A stretch of 62,806 nucleotides of DNA from a virus: positions 1-62,806 of IMG/VR virus record IMGVR_UViG_3300028840_002499; one strand, written 5' to 3'. Below, piece by piece: positions 14,410 to 62,806 of this stretch. The position numbers and the translations under genes are program-made. The notes beneath the pieces are model-generated. The model did no database searches. It saw only the letters and a program-made list of their open reading frames with translations, and was not told the origin of the DNA. Within the stretch, counting starts at the first letter, position 1, and every line of letters starts with the position of its first letter.

Positions 14410-14439
14410 ATTATAGCATAAAATTAGTACTTGACATAA
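14410..14439 (-). promoter_or_regulatory. Minus-strand promoter for ParB/glycosyltransferase pair
   Basis: On the minus strand an extended -10 TATGC-TATAAT ends at 14410; the -35 is weak (TTATGT at 18-base spacing). The start site would be within a few bases of the ATG at 14402, and no ribosome-binding site is seen. Confidence 0.5.
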
Positions 14440-16049: not shown

Positions 16050-16873
16050 TGGGTAAAACGAAAATTGAGTGGACAGATTACACATTCAATCCCTGGGTGG
16101 GATGTCATAAGATCAGCGAGGGGTGTGCGAACTGTTATGCTGAAAGACAGATGACACGGAACACCACATGGAGTAACACATGGGGGCCAGAAGTCCTTAC
16201 TCAGAGAATACCAACAGCAGACTCCAACTGGAGGAAACCAGTGCGATGGAACACCCAAGCGAAGGCACAAGGGAAACCACTATTCGTTTTTTCTGGCAGT
16301 CTTTGTGACATATTCGAGGAACATAGAGATGTAACAGATTCCAGGTCGCGTTTAATTGAGTTAATAGATTCTACTCCCCATCTCATATGGTTACTTCTTA
16401 CTAAGCGGCCAGAGAATGTGAACGATATGGTTCCCCCACATTGGCGTATGGTTCCACCAGAAAACCTTTGGATCGGCACGAGTGTTGAAAACCAGAAGAA
16501 TGCCGTCAATCGCCTAAGGCACTTTCGACACATCAACGCAGTTGTGAAATTCGTCAGCTATGAACCGGCAATTGGGCCAGTGAGTTGGAGTGGATGGGAA
16601 CCTTACCTGCAGTGGATGATTTTCGGTGGTGAGAGTGGCGCAAGATCAAGAGATGCAAACTCACGTTGGGCAATCATGGCAAAGAATTGGTGCGAGAGAA
16701 ATGGTATCCCGTTCTTCATGAAACAGATGGGAACAGCGTGGGCAGTGGAAATGCAAATGAGTAAGCAATACCCGAAAGGTGAAAACTTTGATGCGTTTCC
16801 AAAAGAGTTACAAGTAAGGGAAGTACCAGAAGTAGTGTATCAACCGAAAGGATCGGTGGCGGGCTTGTCTTAG
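16049..16873 (+). CDS. DUF5131 / phage Gp37-Gp68 family protein
   Basis: The 274-residue protein has IEWTDYTFNPWVGCHKISEG and then CANCYAERQ, the Cys pattern of the DUF5131 family, and FGGESGARSRDANSRW near the C-terminus. The family is common in phages and related in motif style to iron-sulphur/radical-SAM-like proteins; its reaction is not established to my knowledge. Translation is coupled to the HTH gene. The last 13 bases of the gene are part of a long hairpin element. Confidence 0.85.
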   Translation: MGKTKIEWTDYTFNPWVGCHKISEGCANCYAERQMTRNTTWSNTWGPEVLTQRIPTADSNWRKPVRWNTQAKAQGKPLFVFSGSLCDIFEEHRDVTDSRSRLIELIDSTPHLIWLLLTKRPENVNDMVPPHWRMVPPENLWIGTSVENQKNAVNRLRHFRHINAVVKFVSYEPAIGPVSWSGWEPYLQWMIFGGESGARSRDANSRWAIMAKNWCERNGIPFFMKQMGTAWAVEMQMSKQYPKGENFDAFPKELQVREVPEVVYQPKGSVAGLS

Positions 16874-16979
16874 CTTAACGGAACGGTAGAACAGGTCAAG
16901 GGTTGCTCGCTTTGCTCGCAAGTCCTTCGGACAAACCCTTGACAAGTCCTCCCTTATCCGTTGCTCGACAAACAAGCCC
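16861..16979. repeat. Long imperfect hairpin element, copy 1
   Basis: GGGCTTGT (16861-16868) pairs with ACAAGCCC (16972-16979). Inside, AACGGA pairs with TCCGTT and GTCAAGGGTT (16895-16904) pairs with AACCCTTGAC (16934-16943), closing over two small hairpins including GTCCTTCGGAC. On the minus strand the segment GATAAGGGAGGACTTGTC is nearly shared with the element at 30650-30777, which lies in the other orientation. It could be a terminator, a small RNA or an attC-like site; the sequence does not decide. Confidence 0.65.
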
Positions 16980-17021
16980 TACCCCCTCCCCAGGAACATC
17001 CATCGAAGTGCGAGAGTTGCC

Positions 17022-18449: not shown

Positions 18450-19313
18450 ATGACATTGACACAAGTAGACATTAGGGCATTTGAAGTATCAGTACTTGAT
18501 GCAGAAATTGAAAAGCAGAACTGGAAAAAAGAACAGCACGAAACTAGACTAGCGAATTGTGGGAAATTCAGAAGTTATCGGCTCAATCCTCAATCAGGTA
18601 ATTATTACTTGCAAACGATGTATTGTGGAGATCACAACGGATGTCCAGTATGTGCCAAACGCAGGGGTGAAAAACTCAAGAAAATGATAACCGGATACTC
18701 AGATGATACGTGGGACAGTCGAGTAGCAGAATTTGAAAGCGATGATCAAGCAAAAGAATATTGTAAGTTACTGGAAGGAAAACAGAACTACCTGTTGTAC
18801 CCTCAGTCGGATGGAACAGCGATAGTATTCTTTGATGACGATCCTGTTGACGAAACGCAGCCAGGAGAACTTCTAACAAACGAACTAGCTGAGTCCATGG
18901 ACTGGACACAGATTTCAAAGACTCCAAAAGGCAGAAGGTCATCCGGCTCATATGCTAAACCATCGAGGAGCAAAAAGGAAACGGAAGAGATAGCAGTAAT
19001 CTATCACAACCGTCCAACCTCCAATGCCCCGAGACGGTACGAGGAAAAAGCTGCACAATTAGCCTACGATCAAACCAGTCATCTAAACCCAGAAAATGCA
19101 ATACAGGCAGAGTTGGCAATGGAAGAGCGAACTAATGCCTACATTGCAATTCTCGCCTATTGGGGGTTCGAGATCATCACCCTGGAATACGTCACTTTGA
19201 GAGTAAAAATAAAACGTATACAATGGGTTAAAGATGATAAACCATTCATCAAATTTACTCCAGATGAAGAAAAAAGGTATCCAATCCCACCAGAGTCGTG
19301 GTTTCATCAATAG
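18450..19313 (+). CDS. Protein with Rep-like Cys cluster, function unknown
   Basis: The 287-residue protein has YCGDHNGCPVCAKRRGEKL near residues 58-76, reminiscent of the N-terminal zinc cluster in some plasmid rolling-circle Rep proteins. I do not see the HUH metal motif or a clear catalytic Tyr context, so a Rep function is not supported. The C-terminal part is Lys/Glu/Tyr rich. GGAG lies 9 bases before the ATG. Confidence 0.55.
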   Translation: MTLTQVDIRAFEVSVLDAEIEKQNWKKEQHETRLANCGKFRSYRLNPQSGNYYLQTMYCGDHNGCPVCAKRRGEKLKKMITGYSDDTWDSRVAEFESDDQAKEYCKLLEGKQNYLLYPQSDGTAIVFFDDDPVDETQPGELLTNELAESMDWTQISKTPKGRRSSGSYAKPSRSKKETEEIAVIYHNRPTSNAPRRYEEKAAQLAYDQTSHLNPENAIQAELAMEERTNAYIAILAYWGFEIITLEYVTLRVKIKRIQWVKDDKPFIKFTPDEEKRYPIPPESWFHQ

Positions 19314-19434
19314 AAATCACGAAAATCTGGCAGAAAAATAACAAAGTTTGATAAAGTTCCCAAGTTGGGAGAATTCACTATACAAATTCCAATGTTTCCA
19401 GATCAAGTTGGTTGGACTCTTTCAGGAGAAAGCA

Positions 19435-19650
19435 ATGAGCAATAAATATGCTGAAATGAAATGTGAAGGTGCTTGCGAAAAACACGTTGGAGAAATTGTC
19501 CACGTGCAGGTTATTAGCCCAAAAGGATACGACTGGGGTGATTTTTTGTACTGCGAAGAAGCGGTAGCCGAAGACAGGCGGCGTGATTTCACTGTGCGCC
19601 ACCTAACCACCAATGCAACGGAATTGACTAAACGCTGCGTGCAACCCTAG
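19435..19650 (+). CDS. Small cassette-like protein of unknown function
   Basis: The 71-residue protein (starting MSNKYAEMKCEGACEKH) has AGGAG 8 bases upstream of the ATG. The 13 bases GTTGGTTGGACTC at 19407 that precede it are identical to the start of a cassette at 31569. An attC-like left end begins inside its 3' part at 19601. This suggests the gene is a relic or active integron-type cassette. Confidence 0.55.
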   Translation: MSNKYAEMKCEGACEKHVGEIVHVQVISPKGYDWGDFLYCEEAVAEDRRRDFTVRHLTTNATELTKRCVQP

Positions 19651-19799
19651 AATTATGGCGGTGTTTCATGTGGCCGAGAAAGCTATAGAAAAAATGATGG
19701 CTACTTGCTCGCCGTACGGTCATCAGGTTGGCGAAGATGCATTGCAAGAAATCAAAGATTTACTAACACCGCCAAGCCGGTGATTATAGTTCGTTAGAG
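19601..19799 (+). repeat. attC-like site (lone, long)
   Basis: ACCTAAC (19601-19607) matches the attC R'' consensus and is followed by CACCAATGCA, like the left ends at 31787 and 32480. The right end TGATTATAGTTCGTTA (19781-19796) is identical to the right ends of the two sites at 31891 and 32589, and GTTAGAG (19793-19799) is the R' box. At 199 bp it is longer than usual attC sites, so its exact left-right pairing is uncertain. Confidence 0.5.
19655..19783 (+). CDS. Possible 42-residue protein within the attC-like site
   Basis: A frame beginning MAVFHVAEKAIEKMM runs to a TGA inside the conserved attC right end. No good ribosome-binding site is seen. It may be coding, or simply the inside of a long attC site. 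Confidence 0.3.
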   Translation: MAVFHVAEKAIEKMMATCSPYGHQVGEDALQEIKDLLTPPSR

Positions 19800-19807
19800 A
19801 ACCAGGA

Positions 19808-19987
19808 ATGAAACAAATCGTAGTTCATGTTTACAAGTACAATGGCGTAGATGGAACTCAGAAGTTTTCAGCATCAATTGGAAACGGGTGGTGGTTTGCA
19901 ACTTCCAACGATCCAAACGCAGCAGTCAAAGCTGCAATCAAACGATACGAGAATGAAACCGGCAAGAAGGTGACAAGTAGCAAGTAG
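19808..19987 (+). CDS. Small protein of unknown function
   Basis: The 59-residue protein (MKQIVVHVYKYNGVDGTQKF) begins 9 bases after the R' box of the attC-like site, the distance at which cassette genes usually start. It has a beta-beta-alpha look. The ribosome site is weak (CCAGGA). No attC site follows it. Confidence 0.5.
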   Translation: MKQIVVHVYKYNGVDGTQKFSASIGNGWWFATSNDPNAAVKAAIKRYENETGKKVTSSK

Positions 19988-20006
19988 TATTTTTTTAATT
20001 TAGTAC

Positions 20007-20049
20007 TTGACATTTTACGATAAATGTATATAATTAGGTTATCAGATAA
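20007..20049 (+). promoter_or_regulatory. Early promoter with operator-like palindrome
   Basis: TTGACA (20007-20012), 16-base spacer ending TGTA, TATAAT (20029-20034), then GTTATCAGATAATC around 20038-20051. The same architecture is found at 28856 and 33671. Confidence 0.8.
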
Positions 20050-20071
20050 TCACATTCAATCGGAGAAAAAA

Positions 20072-20617
20072 ATGTCTAAAAAATGTACAAACCCTTTTCT
20101 TGAATCAGATGGATTTTGCACAAGATGTAGTGAGTACCATTTCAAAACAAATAAAAGAGGGGACGTTTTGACCACAAGGAAACCCACAATAAATAAACGA
20201 GAAAAATTACAAGCTGAAAAATCAGCCAGCATTCAGAGAACCATTGAAAATACTCCTCAGTATAAAGTAGCCAAAGAGACGGTTGAAATGTTGTCTGAAA
20301 TTTATGACATCCAAGTGAAAATTGTTTTTACGAATTTACAAGCTAGTTATCACATTAAAAGGAAAACTGGACACGTAATTAAATTTGGTTATCAGTCTTT
20401 GGATCGATCTTTTGAAAATGGGTTTGACGAGTACAAAATCTTACAATGGATGATCAACTACAAGAAAATTGATGGTATTGAAGGTGCAAGGCAAGAGGCA
20501 ATGCACGAGTTTTCACACGTTTTACAAACTGAAATCCCAGGTGGCAGAACTTACGGTTCATGCCACAACGAAACTTTCATCAAGTGCTACCAGGAAGTTA
20601 TGGAGTTGGTGAACTAA
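20072..20617 (+). CDS. SprT-like zinc metalloprotein
   Basis: The 181-residue protein has a Cys-rich N-terminus (CTNP, CTRCSEYHF), a long middle region and a zincin motif HEFSH within REAMHEFSHVLQ, followed by CHNETFIKCY. This HExxH with a downstream H..F pattern resembles SprT/Spartan-type peptidases. Phage versions may act on DNA-bound proteins. ATG at 20072 has CGGAG 8 bases upstream. Confidence 0.7.
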   Translation: MSKKCTNPFLESDGFCTRCSEYHFKTNKRGDVLTTRKPTINKREKLQAEKSASIQRTIENTPQYKVAKETVEMLSEIYDIQVKIVFTNLQASYHIKRKTGHVIKFGYQSLDRSFENGFDEYKILQWMINYKKIDGIEGARQEAMHEFSHVLQTEIPGGRTYGSCHNETFIKCYQEVMELVN

Positions 20618-27170: not shown

Positions 27171-28151
27171 ATGAAAACGATTGGAGTGGATATTGGCTAT
27201 TATGCGACAAAGGCAGTATGTGGAAAAAAGGTAGTCACCTTCCCATCTGTTGCTGGAACGCCGAATGTATCACAGTTAGTTCATGGTGTTGGTGATGGAG
27301 AGACTATCATCAATCTTGGTATCGGTGATAGTTACAAGTATATTGTTGGTCGGGATGCTATTTTGAAATCCAGATCAACAGAGCGAAGAGAGGAGCGGGA
27401 GTGGATCACATCTCACCTCTGGAAAGTTCTTTTTTATCACGCTATTAGTCAGCTTGAGCCGGAAGGTGGGGAGTTCAGAATTGTTACTGGACTTCCAGTT
27501 GACTATTTCAGTTCAGATCATGTGATGCTCAAAAAGATTGTTGAAGGGTTGCACAAGTTCGCAGTGAACGACAAGAGACTGGAACTCCGTCTTTCGTCAA
27601 TAGTCACGATGCAACCATTCGGAGCAGTCTGCAATGAAATTCTGTCATTCGATGGAAACCTGAAAAATAAGTCATTGTCTCAGTCCAGTATTGGTGTTAT
27701 CGATATTGGCGGGAAAACGACAAACATCTTAACGGTTGACCAGATGGCAGATATTGGAGCGCAGTCATTCAGTACCGATACTGGAGGATGGGATATTGTT
27801 CGTGCTGTGAAAACATCCATCCAAGAAAAGTTCTTTGACTACGAATTGAAAGATCATGAAGTTGCAGAGATTGTCGCATCGAAAACCATGAAACGGTTTG
27901 GTAAGGATGTTGACGTTTCTGATCTAGTTGAGCCGGTGACAGATTCAATCACCAGAGAGATAGTTGCACTCACGACCCAGGTATGGGGTAATGCGAGTGG
28001 ACTGGACAAGATTTTCATCTCTGGTGGCGGTGCAAACCTGATCGGTGAAACCATTGCTGATGAATTTCCTCATGCAGTTGTAGTCAGTGATCCAGAAGTT
28101 GCTAATGCGAAAGGGTATTACAAGTATGGGAAATTCATCGAAAAAATCTAG
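27171..28151 (+). CDS. ParM/Alp-type actin-like ATPase
   Basis: The 326-residue protein has the actin-fold motifs TIGVDIGYYATKAV (phosphate 1), SSIGVIDIGGKTTNI (phosphate 2) and FISGGGANLIGE (adenosine), as in plasmid ParM/StbA proteins. It would form filaments that push DNA copies apart. Two small genes follow in the same operon and may be its DNA-binding adaptors. It lies one base after the Rad52-like stop. Confidence 0.85.
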   Translation: MKTIGVDIGYYATKAVCGKKVVTFPSVAGTPNVSQLVHGVGDGETIINLGIGDSYKYIVGRDAILKSRSTERREEREWITSHLWKVLFYHAISQLEPEGGEFRIVTGLPVDYFSSDHVMLKKIVEGLHKFAVNDKRLELRLSSIVTMQPFGAVCNEILSFDGNLKNKSLSQSSIGVIDIGGKTTNILTVDQMADIGAQSFSTDTGGWDIVRAVKTSIQEKFFDYELKDHEVAEIVASKTMKRFGKDVDVSDLVEPVTDSITREIVALTTQVWGNASGLDKIFISGGGANLIGETIADEFPHAVVVSDPEVANAKGYYKYGKFIEKI

Positions 28152-28812: not shown

Positions 28813-28843
28813 GTGGGGTGGGGAAATCTCACCCCACTTTCCT
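28813..28843 (+). terminator. Intrinsic terminator after the partition operon
   Basis: GTGGGGTG (28813-28820) and CACCCCAC (28830-28837) form a perfect 8-bp stem followed by TTTCCTT, 5 bases after the stop of the HTH gene. Confidence 0.75.
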
Positions 28844-28855
28844 TGAAATTAGTGC

Positions 28856-28898
28856 TTGACATTTTACCCAATTTGTATATAATATAAGTATCAGATAA
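28856..28898 (+). promoter_or_regulatory. Early promoter with operator-like motif
   Basis: TTGACA (28856-28861), 16-base spacer ending TGTA, TATAAT (28878-28883), TATCAGATAA (28889-28898). Same form as at 20007 and 33671. Confidence 0.8.
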
Positions 28899-28920
28899 CC
28901 TTATTTTTTCGGAGAGAAAA

Positions 28921-29328
28921 ATGTCAGAAACCTATGTTATAGCAAAAGATAAATCAATCAGGGCAAGAGTTTATGCCCGTTACTGCATGGCAGCCTACAA
29001 TCGGGCGAAATCGTGCGGGAAATTTGAGATCAAAAGAGTGCATCGTGCTTTTGGGTTGGCATTCAAAGAGTTGACCACTGGTGAAACTCCAGATTACCAG
29101 ACCACCATGAAGTCATGCACTTGCAAGGATTACCAACTAGGAAAGCGGTGGAATCGTGGTTTCTGCAAGCACATGATTGCAAAGATGATTGTTCGCAGGG
29201 CAAAAGATTATATGCACGATGAGCACATGAAAGTTATTCGTGAGAAAAAAGCGGAAGAGGAAAAGGAACGGAAGAGGCTAGTTGCCTTTCAAATTGAACT
29301 ACGGCGAAAAGCATTGGAGTTGGGATAA
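28921..29328 (+). CDS. SWIM zinc-finger protein
   Basis: The 135-residue basic protein has KSCTCKDYQLGKRWNRGFCK then HMIAK, which matches the CxCx(n)CxH SWIM zinc finger. The C-terminus is a charged helix. SWIM fingers usually bind DNA or partner proteins. GGAG precedes the ATG by about 6 bases. Confidence 0.7.
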   Translation: MSETYVIAKDKSIRARVYARYCMAAYNRAKSCGKFEIKRVHRAFGLAFKELTTGETPDYQTTMKSCTCKDYQLGKRWNRGFCKHMIAKMIVRRAKDYMHDEHMKVIREKKAEEEKERKRLVAFQIELRRKALELG

Positions 29329-30636: not shown

Positions 30637-30649
30637 ACCGGAGGCGGGT

Positions 30650-30777
30650 GGCTGGCGTTTTTTGCCAGAGCAGATAAGGGACGAGTGTCAAGGGCATGTT
30701 CCGTAGGAATTTTTAGCCGAAGGCTAAAAACCCTTGCACACTCTAAGTCCCGCTCTGCTATACTGGCAGAGCCAGCC
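30650..30777. repeat. Long imperfect hairpin element, copy 2
   Basis: GGCTGGC (30650-30656) pairs with GCCAGCC (30771-30777). Inside, GCCAG/CTGGC, GAGCAG/CTGCTC-like, GGGAC/GTCCC, CAAGGG/CCCTTG and TTTTTAGCC/GGCTAAAAA stack into one long imperfect hairpin. The plus strand here shares GATAAGGGA, GA and TGTCAAGGG in order with the minus strand of the element at 16861-16979. It carries no reading frame and ends just before the cassette array. Confidence 0.65.
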
Positions 30778-30796
30778 TTGAGCCGATGAAGGGTTG

Positions 30797-30854: not shown

Positions 30855-31187
30855 ATGCAATCAATAGAGCAAGCAAAGTGGCTTTCGTTGGCAGTCTCAG
30901 CTGCACTAAAAGAGTTGCGAAAAGATTGGCCCACAAAGCAGATAGACGAAAGTGAAGTTTCATTCCGGTTCAAATCCGTTGAAGGTGTGCTAATCATGGC
31001 ACTAAATGAAGCACATGCCTTGGTAGAAGAATGGGAAGCAATAGAGAGCAGCCCAACTACGTGTGAAACAGACTCACCTAACGCGGTGCAAAAAATCAAC
31101 ACGGTTTGCCAGGGTTCCAATCATAGTCGGCGGGCTTGTGAGTTCAATCGTTGGGCGGACGCGTTCTGCAAGGAGTTGAAATGCTAA
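30855..31187 (+). CDS. Small helical protein at the head of the cassette array
   Basis: The 110-residue protein (MQSIEQAKWLSLAVSAALKE) is helical in its first 70 residues; the C-terminal 35 residues are encoded by attC-like sequence, as is common for cassette genes. TAGGAG is 8 bases upstream. Function unknown. Confidence 0.55.
   Translation: MQSIEQAKWLSLAVSAALKELRKDWPTKQIDESEVSFRFKSVEGVLIMALNEAHALVEEWEAIESSPTTCETDSPNAVQKINTVCQGSNHSRRACEFNRWADAFCKELKC
31051..31156 (+). repeat. attC-like site 1 (tentative left end)
   Basis: The R' box GTTGGGC (31150-31156) is a perfect GTTRRRY. Left-end candidates are GCCCAAC (31051) and ACCTAAC (31076-31082, a perfect RYYYAAC). Arm pairing is weak (ACTCACC...GCGG with CGGGC...GTGAGT), so the left end is uncertain. 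Confidence 0.5.
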
Positions 31188-31408
31188 AAGACAGAATTCA
31201 AACATGGGAAAATGCAGTCATAAGAACAGAAGAAAGAATATCTAAACTTTCCGAACTCTTAGAATCTATTGGCAAATCTCACATAAACGAACTTACCCCG
31301 CAAGAATTGTTCGCCGCCCAACTCCAAGTGCAGGGGAATAGCTACGCTATGGGAAACGCAGCCGATGTAGACGAATCAAATTGGACTGCAAATAATGTCA
31401 CGGGTTAG
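31181..31408 (+). CDS. Cassette gene 2, small coiled-coil protein
   Basis: The 75-residue protein starts at ATG 31181 with AAGGAG 7 bases upstream, 30 bases after the cassette boundary. Its first half is a charged helix (VIRTEERISKLSELLESIGK); the rest is encoded within an attC-like site. Function unknown. Confidence 0.55.
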   Translation: MLKDRIQTWENAVIRTEERISKLSELLESIGKSHINELTPQELFAAQLQVQGNSYAMGNAADVDESNWTANNVTG

Positions 31409-31437
31409 CAACGCCATACCCCTGAACATCGTTAGTT
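31316..31437 (+). repeat. attC-like site 2
   Basis: R'' GCCCAAC (31316-31322) and, with CC before it, nine bases complement the first nine bases of its own cassette (GTTGGGCGG at 31150). CAGGGGAATAGC pairs with GCCATACCCCTG across the site; R' is GTTAGTT (31431-31437). Confidence 0.75.
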
Positions 31438-31575
31438 AACTCGGAATGGTGATGAGCGGGGCCGAGTCGACGGTAACGGGTAGTTGGCGCTTCAGTGTTA
31501 GGTCGAACACCGGCAAGATCGCGTAACTACCGGCCCCGCTCAAAACTCACCATCCGGTTATGCTCAACGTTGGTT
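31434..31575 (+). repeat. attC-like site 3 (cassette without a gene)
   Basis: R''-like AGTTAAC (31434-31440) overlaps the preceding R'. GGAATGGTGATGAGCGGGGC pairs with the right arm GCCCCGCTCAAAACTCACC, with one extra base in each arm; R' is GTTGGTT (31569-31575). The cassette appears to be nothing but the site. Its arms are homologous to those of site 5 at 32113. Confidence 0.7.
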
Positions 31576-31599
31576 GGACTCGTTGGAAAGGATCGCAAC

Positions 31600-31890
31600 A
31601 TGCACACTAAAGTACAAATAATTTGCAAAAATAATAAGCCCTACGGTATCCGAGATGATGCTGGCTTCTTATTCTTCTTTACGAAAGTGAGTAAATTTCA
31701 AGGACAAGAAGAAAGATACCGCCAGGAACTTGAAGAACAGTTTACCCTTGCTGATTATCTTTTGACAGCATTGCAAGAAAGGGGCCAACCAACACCAAAT
31801 GCAGCTTATACGCCACGGCAGAAATTGGACGGTACAAATAATTCTAGTGTCCCAAACAACGGCGGCACTAATGACACGCCAACCCCCTGA
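31600..31890 (+). CDS. Cassette gene 4, small protein of unknown function
   Basis: The 96-residue protein (MHTKVQIICKNNKPYGIRDD) starts 31 bases after the cassette boundary; GGAAAGGA is upstream. Its Asn/Thr/Pro-rich C-terminal 35 residues are encoded by attC sequence, and the stop TGA is part of the conserved right end. Function unknown. Confidence 0.6.
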   Translation: MHTKVQIICKNNKPYGIRDDAGFLFFFTKVSKFQGQEERYRQELEEQFTLADYLLTALQERGQPTPNAAYTPRQKLDGTNNSSVPNNGGTNDTPTP

Positions 31891-31906
31891 TTATAGTTCG
31901 TTATGC
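31787..31906 (+). repeat. attC-like site 4
   Basis: The nine bases CCAACCAAC (31785-31793) exactly complement the start of the same cassette (GTTGGTTGG at 31569). AATGCAG near the left pairs with CTGATT at the right with one extra G. The right end is TGATTATAGTTCGTTATGC with R' GTTATGC (31900-31906). Confidence 0.8.
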
Positions 31907-31938
31907 ACTCTATTCGCTAGAAATGAAAGGAAAAAGAG

Positions 31939-32109
31939 ATGATAAACAAGAAAAGATACGCATTCAATATTGTATTTATGCTAGTGTCAGCCATAACAAT
32001 TTTATGGGCGTATATGTTTTTTAGCCTGCCTGATCTATGGCTTGTGGTTGTGTCTATTGGTGTAGGTGGATTTATGGCATTCCTAGACCATGTGTTTTTT
32101 AATAATTAG
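31939..32109 (+). CDS. Cassette gene 5, two-pass membrane protein
   Basis: The 56-residue protein starts at ATG 31939 after GAAAGGAAAAAGAG. It has two hydrophobic segments (IVFMLVSAITILWAYMFF and LWLVVVSIGVGGFMAFL). Its stop lies just before the attC-like R'' box. Function unknown; a small membrane protein of this shape could be holin-like or an exclusion factor. Confidence 0.6.
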   Translation: MINKKRYAFNIVFMLVSAITILWAYMFFSLPDLWLVVVSIGVGGFMAFLDHVFFNN

Positions 32110-32112
32110 AGT

Positions 32113-32264
32113 GCATAACAAATCACAGCACACGGAATGTTGATGAACGGGGCCGAGCCGACGGTAATGGGTAGACACGACACAGGTCTAGGTCGGACGA
32201 CAGAAATCCGCGTACCTACCAGCCCCGTTCAAAACTCACCATCTGGTGTGTTCAACCGTTAAGT
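32113..32264 (+). repeat. attC-like site 5
   Basis: R'' GCATAAC (32113-32119). The 13 bases 32107-32119 exactly complement the first 13 bases of the same cassette (31900-31912). The arms GAACGGGGC and GCCCCGTTC pair, flanked by CACAC and GTGTG; R' is GTTAAGT (32258-32264), a perfect GTTRRRY. Confidence 0.85.
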
Positions 32265-32289
32265 GTCATGTTGCCTGATAGGAGTTGAA

Positions 32290-32589
32290 ATGTACGGATA
32301 CATATTTTTGTATTTTATTCTCTGTGTGTCGTTTGCAATCGGTATGTTTGTGGGTGAATACAGGCATGAGAAGGTCAGCAAATCAACGGTCTTTTTATAC
32401 ATTGTTTTTTGTGCACTCGCAGCCCCCATTTTATTCTTTGCGTTGTTGGGTGAGTTTCTTGTTTTACAATCAAAAGTCCACCCAACCACAAATGCAGTTG
32501 ACACGCCTGCGCTGCACCGTTGCGTTGATTGTGGATCTGATTTACAACTGGTGTGCCCTGGCAAATATCAATGTCCGGCGTGCCACTGA
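32290..32589 (+). CDS. Cassette gene 6, membrane protein with zinc ribbon
   Basis: The 99-residue protein has two hydrophobic segments (about residues 2-22 and 34-58) and a C-terminal CVDCGSDLQL...CPGKYQCPACH zinc ribbon encoded by attC sequence. TAGGAG is 6 bases before the ATG. Function unknown. Confidence 0.6.
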   Translation: MYGYIFLYFILCVSFAIGMFVGEYRHEKVSKSTVFLYIVFCALAAPILFFALLGEFLVLQSKVHPTTNAVDTPALHRCVDCGSDLQLVCPGKYQCPACH

Positions 32590-32605
32590 TTATAGTTCGT
32601 TATAT
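32480..32605 (+). repeat. attC-like site 6
   Basis: R'' ACCCAAC (32480-32486) fits RYYYAAC. AATGCAGTTGACACGCC pairs with GGCGTGCCACTGATT with single extra bases, the typical form of attC arms. The right end TGATTATAGTTCGTTA is shared with site 4 and with the site at 19.8 kb; R' is GTTATAT (32599-32605). Confidence 0.8.
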
Positions 32606-32617
32606 GGCAAAGCTATT

Positions 32618-32968
32618 ATGAACACCTACGAAGAGTGGAAAGTTTTTGCAAATAAACCGGGCGCAATCACAACCGTCATGTATCAAGATTGGTTGCTACA
32701 GGGTTGCCCGAAGTGCGATGGTAAAGAGTGGGAACTCACCAACGACGGTTGGGCATATTGCTGTGGGTGCAGTAAAGGCTATTCAACCAATGGTATATGG
32801 GTTCATGCGCCCTTAGTTTTCTACGACAAGAACGGGTATCACTGTTTTATGTGTCGTGGATATGGCAAGCGAGATGGGGCAACCTGTGAAGATTGCTGTG
32901 GTAGATTTACGCAACCAGAAACGCTTTGCGCTTCTAACAAATCGTTAGAGACAGACCCGCCGCAATAG
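32618..32968 (+). CDS. Cassette gene 7, Cys-rich zinc protein
   Basis: The 116-residue protein has four CxxC-like pairs (CPKCDGKEW, CCGCSKGY, CFMCRGYG, CEDCCGRF), suggesting two zinc sites. It begins 19 bases after the cassette boundary without a strong ribosome site. The stop lies in the loop of the next attC-like site. Confidence 0.6.
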   Translation: MNTYEEWKVFANKPGAITTVMYQDWLLQGCPKCDGKEWELTNDGWAYCCGCSKGYSTNGIWVHAPLVFYDKNGYHCFMCRGYGKRDGATCEDCCGRFTQPETLCASNKSLETDPPQ

Positions 32969-32999
32969 CGGCTTGAATAGCTCAACTCAACCGTTAGGG
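32932..32999 (+). repeat. attC-like site 7 (short, classical form)
   Basis: At 68 bp this looks most like a textbook attC: TTCTAAC (32932-32938), AAATC spacer, GTTAGAG, a central CCGCCGC-AATA-GCGGC hairpin, CTCAAC and R' GTTAGGG (32993-32999). R'' is not complementary to the start of its cassette beyond TAAC. Confidence 0.7.
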
Positions 33000-33008
33000 T
33001 GAATACCT

Positions 33009-33248
33009 ATGAAAATACATTACAGCACATGGAATGGCTACTACAATACAATCGCTTGTGGCAAAAAAGCGGTTGAAGCGCGAGCCGATAAATCTCTAGT
33101 CACTTGTGGCCTTTGCAAGAAAACCAATGTATTCACCCTAACTATCAATGCAAGCGACTTTGATAAATCTCGCGCAAGAAATGAATATTGCAAGCATGGC
33201 ATTGTTTTCCCGCATTGTATAACTTGCAATAGCACTCAAAGCGCTTGA
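33009..33248 (+). CDS. Cassette gene 8, small zinc protein
   Basis: The 79-residue protein has CGLCKKTNV and CKHGIVFPHCITC. The N-terminal IHYSTWNGYYNTIACGKK resembles small phage and cassette proteins of unknown role. It starts 16 bases after the cassette boundary, and its second half is encoded by attC-like sequence. Confidence 0.55.
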   Translation: MKIHYSTWNGYYNTIACGKKAVEARADKSLVTCGLCKKTNVFTLTINASDFDKSRARNEYCKHGIVFPHCITCNSTQSA

Positions 33249-33250
33249 GT
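33136..33250 (+). repeat. attC-like site 8 (degenerate right end)
   Basis: The 14 bases 33129-33142 are an exact reverse complement of the first 14 bases of the same cassette (32993-33006). CAAGCGACTTTGA pairs with TCAAAGCGCTTG with one extra A. The right box is CTTGAGT (33244-33250), lacking the G of GTT, so the array may end here at a non-attC target. Confidence 0.7.
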
Positions 33251-33255
33251 CTAAA

Positions 33256-33492
33256 ATGAGATATTTCGTCAAATGTCAATGTGGCCTCAGATCGTTTGCA
33301 TTCAATGATCGTTGTTTGCATTGCAACTATAAATTTGAGAAGTGTGATGAGTGCGAAAAGTCAATCTCTCATGATGCTGGTCACTATCCACACGATAAGG
33401 ACTGTAATCAAAAGGATGACGACATTTTACAGTGTGATTGTGACAACACAACTTGTGAACAGTGCTGTTGGGAGTGTGCCAAATTAACTTGA
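33256..33492 (+). CDS. Cys-rich zinc protein after the array
   Basis: The 78-residue protein has six Cys pairs or triplets (CQCGLR, CLHCNY, CDECEKS, CDCDN, CEQCCWEC) plus His residues. Its stop overlaps the -35 of the next promoter. No family is recognised beyond a multi-zinc knuckle protein. Confidence 0.55.
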   Translation: MRYFVKCQCGLRSFAFNDRCLHCNYKFEKCDECEKSISHDAGHYPHDKDCNQKDDDILQCDCDNTTCEQCCWECAKLT

Positions 33493-33517: not shown

Positions 33518-33557
33518 GCAGTAGAGTTCTAGTTTTCAAGCTAGTTTCACTCCAGGT

Positions 33558-33656
33558 AATTTGACGATCTCTGGAGCGGGTGAGAACCTAAAGTGGTAGT
33601 TCTCCGACTATCACGTGGTTATCTGATAACTCTCCCTCTCCCAAGATCGTCAAATT
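33558..33656 (+). ncRNA. Closed multi-branch RNA element
   Basis: AATTTGACGATCT (33558-33570) is the exact complement of 33644-33656 and closes a domain. Within it GAGAAC pairs with GTTCTC, and GTTATCTGATAAC (33618-33630) is the same palindrome as the early-promoter operator. Transcription from 33489 would include it. It may be a small RNA, a leader of the helicase gene, or a DNA site such as an origin or operator cluster. Confidence 0.55.
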
Positions 33657-33670
33657 ATTTAAATTTACTC

Positions 33671-33714
33671 TTGACAAATTACTGAAAATGTATATAATTA
33701 TAGCTATCAGATAA
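33671..33714 (+). promoter_or_regulatory. Early promoter with operator-like motif
   Basis: TTGACA (33671-33676), 16-base spacer ending TGTA, TATAAT (33693-33698), TATCAGATAA (33705-33714), then GGAGAAAA before the helicase gene. Confidence 0.8.
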
Positions 33715-33740
33715 CCTATTTTTTTGATCGGAGAAAACCT

Positions 33741-62415: not shown

Positions 62416-62806
62416 TTACGGTGCAGTACCAGATGAATAGTACGCCCCACGGAAATCAAATAAGTTACCCTCTGTTCCATCGACATAAGTACCGAAAATG
62501 TCAGACACTTTCAATACAATGTTGCCAGTCTCGAAGTCGCCCACAATCGGGTCAACAGCAGCACCAGCACCAAGCATGGATGTTACAGATTCAACATCTG
62601 ATTTTTTGCGGTAAATCACAGGCCCAGGCATTCCTTGTCGCCGACCCAGAATGAACGGAATCACATTGCTTGTCTTGTAGTTCGCAAACATGTACCAAGG
62701 CAAGTTCGGTGCAGTTCCAGCCATATAAGGGTCTTTGATGGGGATGAAGTTGACCACGTTTTCAGCATTCGTAGCTAACTCTGGCACGAGTTGAGAATTG
62801 AGAATT
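62416..62806 (-). CDS. Major capsid protein, C-terminal part
   Basis: The frame runs through the right window edge and, after removal of the 144-bp repeat, continues into 1-899. A GTG at 62787 is not the start. The C-terminal 82 residues after the repeat junction include VIPFILGRRQGMPGPVIYRK and VLKVSDIFGTYVDG, compatible with the last strand and P-domain of HK97-fold capsids. Confidence 0.85.
   Translation of the reverse strand, partial: ILNSQLVPELATNAENVVNFIPIKDPYMAGTAPNLPWYMFANYKTSNVIPFILGRRQGMPGPVIYRKKSDVESVTSMLGAGAAVDPIVGDFETGNIVLKVSDIFGTYVDGTEGNLFDFRGAYYSSGTAP
62663..62806. repeat. Terminal direct repeat, right copy
   Basis: Exact copy of bases 1-144. Its length near common assembly k-mer sizes suggests overlap of a circular contig. 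Confidence 0.97.

Follow-up and report, generated by a model that had tools for sequence, protein, structure and literature searches.

Probable integron gene cassettes in an uncultivated tailed phage that lacks an integron integrase

We analyzed the 62,806-nt virus record IMGVR_UViG_3300028840_002499 (hereafter, the window) and found that its region 31051-33250 very probably consists of about seven integron gene cassettes carried by a tailed phage without an integron integrase, that is, a phage-borne cluster of attC sites lacking an integrase (CALIN), with a two-cassette remnant upstream, the cassettes having likely been gained through an integrase supplied in trans. An earlier reading of the letters only (the sequence-only reading) had called the region a virus-carried CALIN, and rightly: it has attC sites, no integrase and phage sequences on its flanks. 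Its suggestion that the virus may use the host integron is plausible. A CALIN is defined by two or more attCs within 4 kb and no integron integrase nearby; the window-wide search gave two sites, finer evidence gave four to six, and no such integrase lies near them. Of the elements of a complete integron (intI, attI, Pc), intI is missing. The novelty implied by the sequence-only reading was too high, since 17 CALINs in phage genomes were published in 2023, with assays in which five of six tested phage attCs recombined into attI1 with IntI1 (Qi et al., 2023; PMC9892861). The array described here joins that small group as a further example, one that is long, rich in cassettes and found in an uncultivated phage, with the signature of the circle still legible. 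It supports phages as carriers of integron cassettes.

Cassette ends complementary to their own starts

In four of the seven cassettes, R'' (RYYYAAC) and R' (GTTRRRY) boxes with a G/TT cleavage point occur together with complementarity between R'' and the first bases of the same cassette, over 9-14 nt. The paired positions are 31150 with 31314-31322 (9/9), 31569 with 31785-31793 (9/9), 31900 with 32107-32119 (13/13), and 32993 with 33129-33142 (14/14). All four complementary words begin exactly at GTT, and all four had been pointed out in the sequence-only reading. Such a start would complement its own R'' because both formed the R''/R' stem of the attC in the former closed circle.

The window was scanned for GTT-started words of at least 9 nt with their reverse complement 100-700 nt downstream, and 1,000 dinucleotide shuffles of the region served as background. 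Region 31051-33250 contained four matches, whereas the shuffles averaged 0.14, had at most 2 and reached four in 0 of 1,000; matches of at least 12 nt numbered two, against 0.003. The + strand of the entire window held 11 pairs, of which four fall in the 2.2-kb array. Just two of the 11 exceed 9 nt, one of 13 and one of 14 nt, and both are inside it.

The same pairing was measured in integron cassettes beside real integrases (55 loci, mostly from an IntI scan), where it ran from 6 nt, the selection floor, to 14 nt, most commonly 8-12 nt. The published CALIN of Tetrasphaera phage TJE1 (HQ225832) gave 8 and 8 nt. Pairing in attC sites is known to run often past the 7-nt boxes, to 9-11 nt (PMC2727003). 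The own-start signature is real and of the right size for integron cassettes, and checking viral contigs for self-complementary cassette ends is an inexpensive way to detect decayed arrays that attC models overlook.

The attC sites and their cassettes

The features are listed in Table 1. The proposal of at least six consecutive sites stood in part: four have attC-like structure (31434-31575, 32113-32264, 32480-32605, and 32932-32999), two are degenerate (31314-31437 and 31785-31906), and the first (31076-31156) and last (33129-33250) are doubtful. An L''/L' stem with extra-helical base(s), unpaired central spacer (UCS) and terminal structure was clear at 32932-32999 and 32480-32605; it was not found at the two degenerate sites. 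Single-strand folds were far better than those of shuffles at 31434-31575 and 32113-32264, and 32932-32999 formed a good hairpin (z -3.1 for 32930-33001). The folding check suggested beforehand was therefore borne out by two strong sites, and not by several others, which fold weakly and look decayed; from these uneven folds we read the array as partly decayed. The sites 31434-31575 and 32113-32264 are homologous (a 39-nt, 90% repeat, D7), and the 3' end of 31314-31437 is related to the TGATTATAGTTCGTTA group (repeat family D3). At least three attC types are mixed among the seven sites.

Table 1. Features of the main array, the second array and their flanks (positions in the window)
Feature	Position	Strand	Description
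Left array junction	31076-31156	+	R'-like GTTGGGC at 31150 after TTCAATC; R''-like ACCTAAC at 31076; L'' unconvincing
Cassette 1	31150-31431	+	ORF 31181-31408, 75 aa, orphan; R'' 31314-31322 pairs with start, 9/9
attC of cassette 1	31314-31437	+	CGCCCAAC...CAGGGGAATAGC...GCCATACCCCTG...CGTTAG; short imperfect L''/L' stem, decayed; fold z 0.25
Cassette 2	31431-31569	+	No ORF; practically attC alone
Strong-fold attC	31434-31575	+	Bottom-strand z -5.84, top-strand z -5.35; attC scorer 13.2
Cassette 3	31569-31900	+	ORF 31600-31890, 96 aa, orphan; R'' 31785-31793 pairs with start, 9/9
attC of cassette 3	31785-31906	+	Ends there (R'', TGATTATAGTTCGTTA); L''/L' stem unrecognisable
Cassette 4	31900-32258	+	ORF 31939-32109, 56 aa, small membrane-like protein; R'' 32107-32119, 13/13
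attC of cassette 4	32113-32264	+	Third R2 match of the region, ends as read by hand; bottom-strand fold z -2.21
Cassette 5	32258-32599	+	ORF 32290-32589, 99 aa, membrane segment and zinc-ribbon-like tail
attC of cassette 5	32480-32605	+	L'' CAGTTGaCACGCC / L' GGCGTGCCACTG, extra-helical A; architecture as in bacterial attC of L253
Cassette 6	32599-32993	+	ORF 32618-32968, 116 aa, CxxC zinc-ribbon-like, orphan; stops inside attC
Textbook attC	32932-32999	+	R'' TTCTAAC, L'' GTTaGAG, hairpin CCGCCGCAATAGCGG, L' CTCAAC, R' GTTAGGG
Cassette 7	32993-33243	+	ORF 33009-33248, 79 aa, cysteine-rich, orphan; R'' 33129-33142, 14/14
Terminal attC-like site of cassette 7	33129-33250	+	GCTTGAG in place of R'; weak, fold z -1.14
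Final small cysteine-rich ORF	33256-33492	+	Between 13-nt direct repeat copies (33244, 33488)
Second partial array	19407-19990	+	Cassette start GTTGGTTGGACTC at 19407; ORFs 19435-19650 and 19655-19783; boundary 19793; ORF 19808-19987
Degenerate attC of second array	19601-19799	+	Ends in TGATTATAGTTCGTTA; top R2 match of 19000-20100, 5.9 bits, E 0.72
Phage early promoter and operator, left of array	28843-28930	+	TTGACA..TATAAT, TATCAGATAA; 75% identical over 88 nt to 19994-20081
Same promoter and operator, right of array	33655-33737	+	Repeats D2, D11

For this analysis a covariance model, R2, was trained on attCs of class 1 integrons and of integron loci from several phyla, 38 in all, with explicit R, spacer and L pairing imposed on their alignment (A3). 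The training pairs covary (score 0.283 vs. 0.146 shuffled). R2 recovers sites held out of training, namely all three attCs of TJE1 (L036; at 244, 1016, and 1462), L063, L101, L107, L121, and one Anaerolineales site (L066). The L066 sites, which had been examined and put aside as hard to align, lie outside the training set; a site neighbouring the one recovered at L101 had been in a discarded trial alignment, and the recovered site itself was left out of training.

With filters off, R2 gave three matches in the entire window, the best two of them in the array, namely 32932-32999 (18.5 bits; E 0.047 per 62.8 kb, or E 0.0023 per 3.1 kb) and 32480-32605 (9.2 bits, E 7.2). When the search was limited to 30.6-33.7 kb, the top three were these two and 32113-32264, all at exactly the ends read by hand. 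There was no match at either end site (31076-31156, which also folds weakly, and 33129-33250), and 739 kb of unrelated viral contigs (default filters) yielded nothing up to E 10. A check with an attC covariance model had been proposed in the sequence-only reading, and the array did match above background. By R2 score alone 32480-32605 would be a weak candidate; its ends, its stem and a bacterial match carry the attC call.

That match came from a blastn-type DNA search, made without reference to attC structure, in which 31426-32610 was compared with some 1,500 bacterial genomes; these were Anaerolineae (396) and members of the phyla to which a Desulfuromonas, a Planctomycetales and an Acidobacteria genome belong. 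It returned six short matches in five genomes, about chance level for this number of genomes. One of the six lies on an attC (30 bits; locus L246 of genome G1155), with L' box, spacer, R' box and the next cassette start aligned in register with phage positions 32575-32612; the other five are not on attCs. G1155, a cassette-rich 2.1-Mb genome taken from the phylum of that Planctomycetales genome, gave at least 14 attC matches on many contigs (L248-L258). Its attCs (L246, L253, L258) are heterogeneous, as are those of the phage, and the one at L253 has GTGCCACTGATT..TCGTTAT.TGGCA in register with 32480-32605, although the similarity covers only about 31 nt and no cassette gene is common to both. 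The in-register match supports attC identity and does not identify a host.

Cassette boundaries lie at 31150, 31431, 31569, 31900, 32258, 32599, and 32993, with a non-canonical GCTTGAG near 33243. As had been described, tiny open reading frames (ORFs) on the same strand start 16-39 nt past most boundaries and stop inside the next site, and the attC codes for the C-termini of the cassette ORFs (e.g., PTPNAAYT, PTTNAVDT, LTTNATEL, TLTINASD). The products are orphans of 56-116 aa, two or three of them cysteine-rich and zinc-ribbon-like. The left junction may be either a degenerate attC or an insertion point in the 3' end of ORF 30855-31187, and for ORF 33256-33492 both an additional cassette and a resident gene are conceivable.

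We found no IMG/VR match to the cassette 6 protein or the core motifs of the strong attC, no plasmid match to the cassette 6 and 7 proteins, and no phage match to the cassette 7 protein. Array DNA matched nothing among phage records or the 396 Anaerolineae genomes, and Rfam returned nothing, permissive thresholds included. Short matches of cassette 3 DNA in two bacterial genomes were rejected as chance resemblance to an unrelated gene. TGATTATAGTTCGTTR occurs in more than 100 viral contigs; all those inspected had unrelated contexts, mostly in one freshwater phage lineage, without cassette structure. A 5' leader, AATGTTATGATTATAGTTCGTTATCTCTAAAGGAGGA, is conserved in many freshwater phage contigs (L124, L126, L129 and more), and the 16-mer common to these contigs and the array is, as far as seen, due to chance.

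Just left of the array, 30640-30790 forms a very strong, long, imperfect hairpin (z -7.41); it was rejected as an attC, as it is without R boxes. A CAAGGG...CCCTTG hairpin at 16873-16990 is possibly related to it.

These data bear on the explanation that the region is a phage variable-gene region, merely attC-array-like, with small hairpins such as terminators between early genes. Phages commonly have tightly packed early operons made up of tiny orphan genes with hairpins between them, and the non-attC hairpin at 30640-30790 folds better than the sites. Nonetheless, this explanation predicts neither a complement of the unit start about 110 nt before the unit end, exactly from GTT, nor model matches with exact ends, nor an in-register match to a bacterial attC, and we regard it as highly improbable.

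Phage setting and a second array

The window is a tailed phage genome with terminase and tape measure, structural genes collinear with those of other phages, a GH25 lysin, a ParM-like actin, a Rad52-like annealing protein, and UvrD-like and other helicases. Its structural half is collinear with IMGVR 3300017971_000339 (G003), the rest of which is for the most part unrelated. Because the ends of the window (62416-62787 and 129-389) are neighbours in G003, the genome, though classed as linear, is probably complete and circularly permuted. The nearest relatives do not have the array (R2 found no attC in G001-G004 or G006) and do not share it as a fixed, co-linear block; such sharing had been named beforehand as speaking against a cassette array.

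An early promoter (TTGACA-TATAAT) is repeated at 14421, 15190, 17202, 19997, 28846, and 33664, and the TATCAGATAA palindrome follows several copies (14466, 19994, 28843, 33705). This arrangement looks like the regulon of a phage repressor. As the promoter and operator stand on both flanks, the array is inside the phage and not in host DNA. Joining of host integron DNA to a phage contig by misassembly would be conceivable for a metagenome contig with orphan cassettes. It is extremely unlikely here: the same promoter and operator occur on both sides (28843, 33655; further copies at 19994, 14421, and 15190), the genes are co-oriented, and the adjoining of the contig ends in G003 makes the contig look like one whole, circularly permuted phage genome.

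No PF00589 match was found in the proteins of the window or of the relatives searched (controls positive, 14/14), in agreement with the claim that no IntI-like tyrosine recombinase is present; the absence of intI rests on a record that may be incomplete, although synteny suggests that it is whole. The ParM/actin-like protein (27171-28151) in a phage without an integrase makes plasmid-like lysogeny possible. Right of the array, at 33557-33657, a 28-nt inverted repeat (86%) surrounds a copy of the TTATCTGATAA operator.

A second, partial array (19407-19990), absent from the sequence-only reading, appears to be a two-cassette remnant 11.6 kb upstream of the main one. Its cassette start at 19407 has 13 nt in common with that of cassette 3 at 31569 (D12). 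The exact 16-mer TGATTATAGTTCGTTA, found at 31888 and 32587 at the ends of two array attCs, occurs once more at 19781-19796, and the R2 match at 19601-19799, though low-scoring, has the ends predicted by hand.

Arrival of the cassettes and known systems

We infer past action of an integron integrase on the cassettes, supplied in trans by the host. Each cassette would formerly have been a closed circle joined at G/TT, as its sequence signature suggests. While phage DNA was entering the cell or replicating, an integron integrase of the host would have bound the folded bottom strand of its attCs, cleaved it between G and TT, and added or swapped cassettes singly. The cassette genes would be read from the phage's own upstream early promoter and not from an integron Pc. 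Several attCs would have decayed afterwards, and only 32932-32999, 32480-32605, 32113-32264, and 31434-31575 are likely to be substrates still. The tiny orphan early genes of the array form a set with possible effects on a host. It is a speculative, rather unlikely extension that the early operon serves the phage as a functional store of cassettes, and that tiny early genes, perhaps with counter-defence or takeover roles, are exchanged between phage and host at two genome sites by the integrase of an integron-bearing host acting in trans.

Several results weigh against a phage-borne array of integron cassettes gained in this way. Self-complementary ends are absent from cassettes 2, 5, and 6; the two best R2 E-values over the entire window are only 0.047 and 7.2; and stems are poor at 31314-31437 and 31785-31906. 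No close relative was found, and so none showing gain or loss of a cassette at G/TT, and no host integron with these cassettes was found in the approximately 1,500 genomes. A YTVYLPTV motif in ORF 42365 had pointed to a Chloroflexota host, which was not supported.

The alternative route is a single capture, through illegitimate or homologous recombination, of part of a chromosomal CALIN or integron array of a host; the captured block would have decayed from then on, with no integrase ever acting on phage DNA. We hold this to be a real possibility, at somewhat less than even chances; it agrees with integrase-mediated gain on the identity of the array and differs in the route of arrival, so that confidence in the one does not exclude the other. 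The decay of several attCs fits such a capture, as does the homology of 31434-31575 and 32113-32264 over their length, which recalls sedentary arrays, and off-target recombination has been proposed as the origin of phage CALINs (Qi et al., 2023; PMC9892861). Against it, there are at least three attC types among seven sites, the second array with the same attC end 11.6 kb away requires more than one event, and the left array end resembles a cassette junction at G/TT. The mixed attC types and the second array lead us to lean toward one-by-one gain on phage DNA.

The nearest published likeness is TJE1, in which co-oriented small cassettes with attCs and no integrase also lie inside a tailed phage. 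TJE1 has four ORFs with three attCs of 50-60 nt, whereas the present array has 7-8 cassettes and more degenerate attCs of 68-152 nt; it also has a second partial array in the same genome and no methyltransferase cassette. Sedentary chromosomal integrons (Anaerolineales L066; Vibrio L121 and L040) share with it the architecture R''-UCS-L''-VTS-L'-UCS-R' (VTS, variable terminal structure), long sites of about 130 nt, and own-start pairing of similar length (8-13 nt). In contrast, they have intI, attI and fairly uniform attCs, whereas the window has neither intI nor attI and its attCs are mixed. The Anaerolineales integron (L066, 983-5319) is chromosomal, with uniform attCs of about 130 nt and own-start pairing of 8-13 nt.

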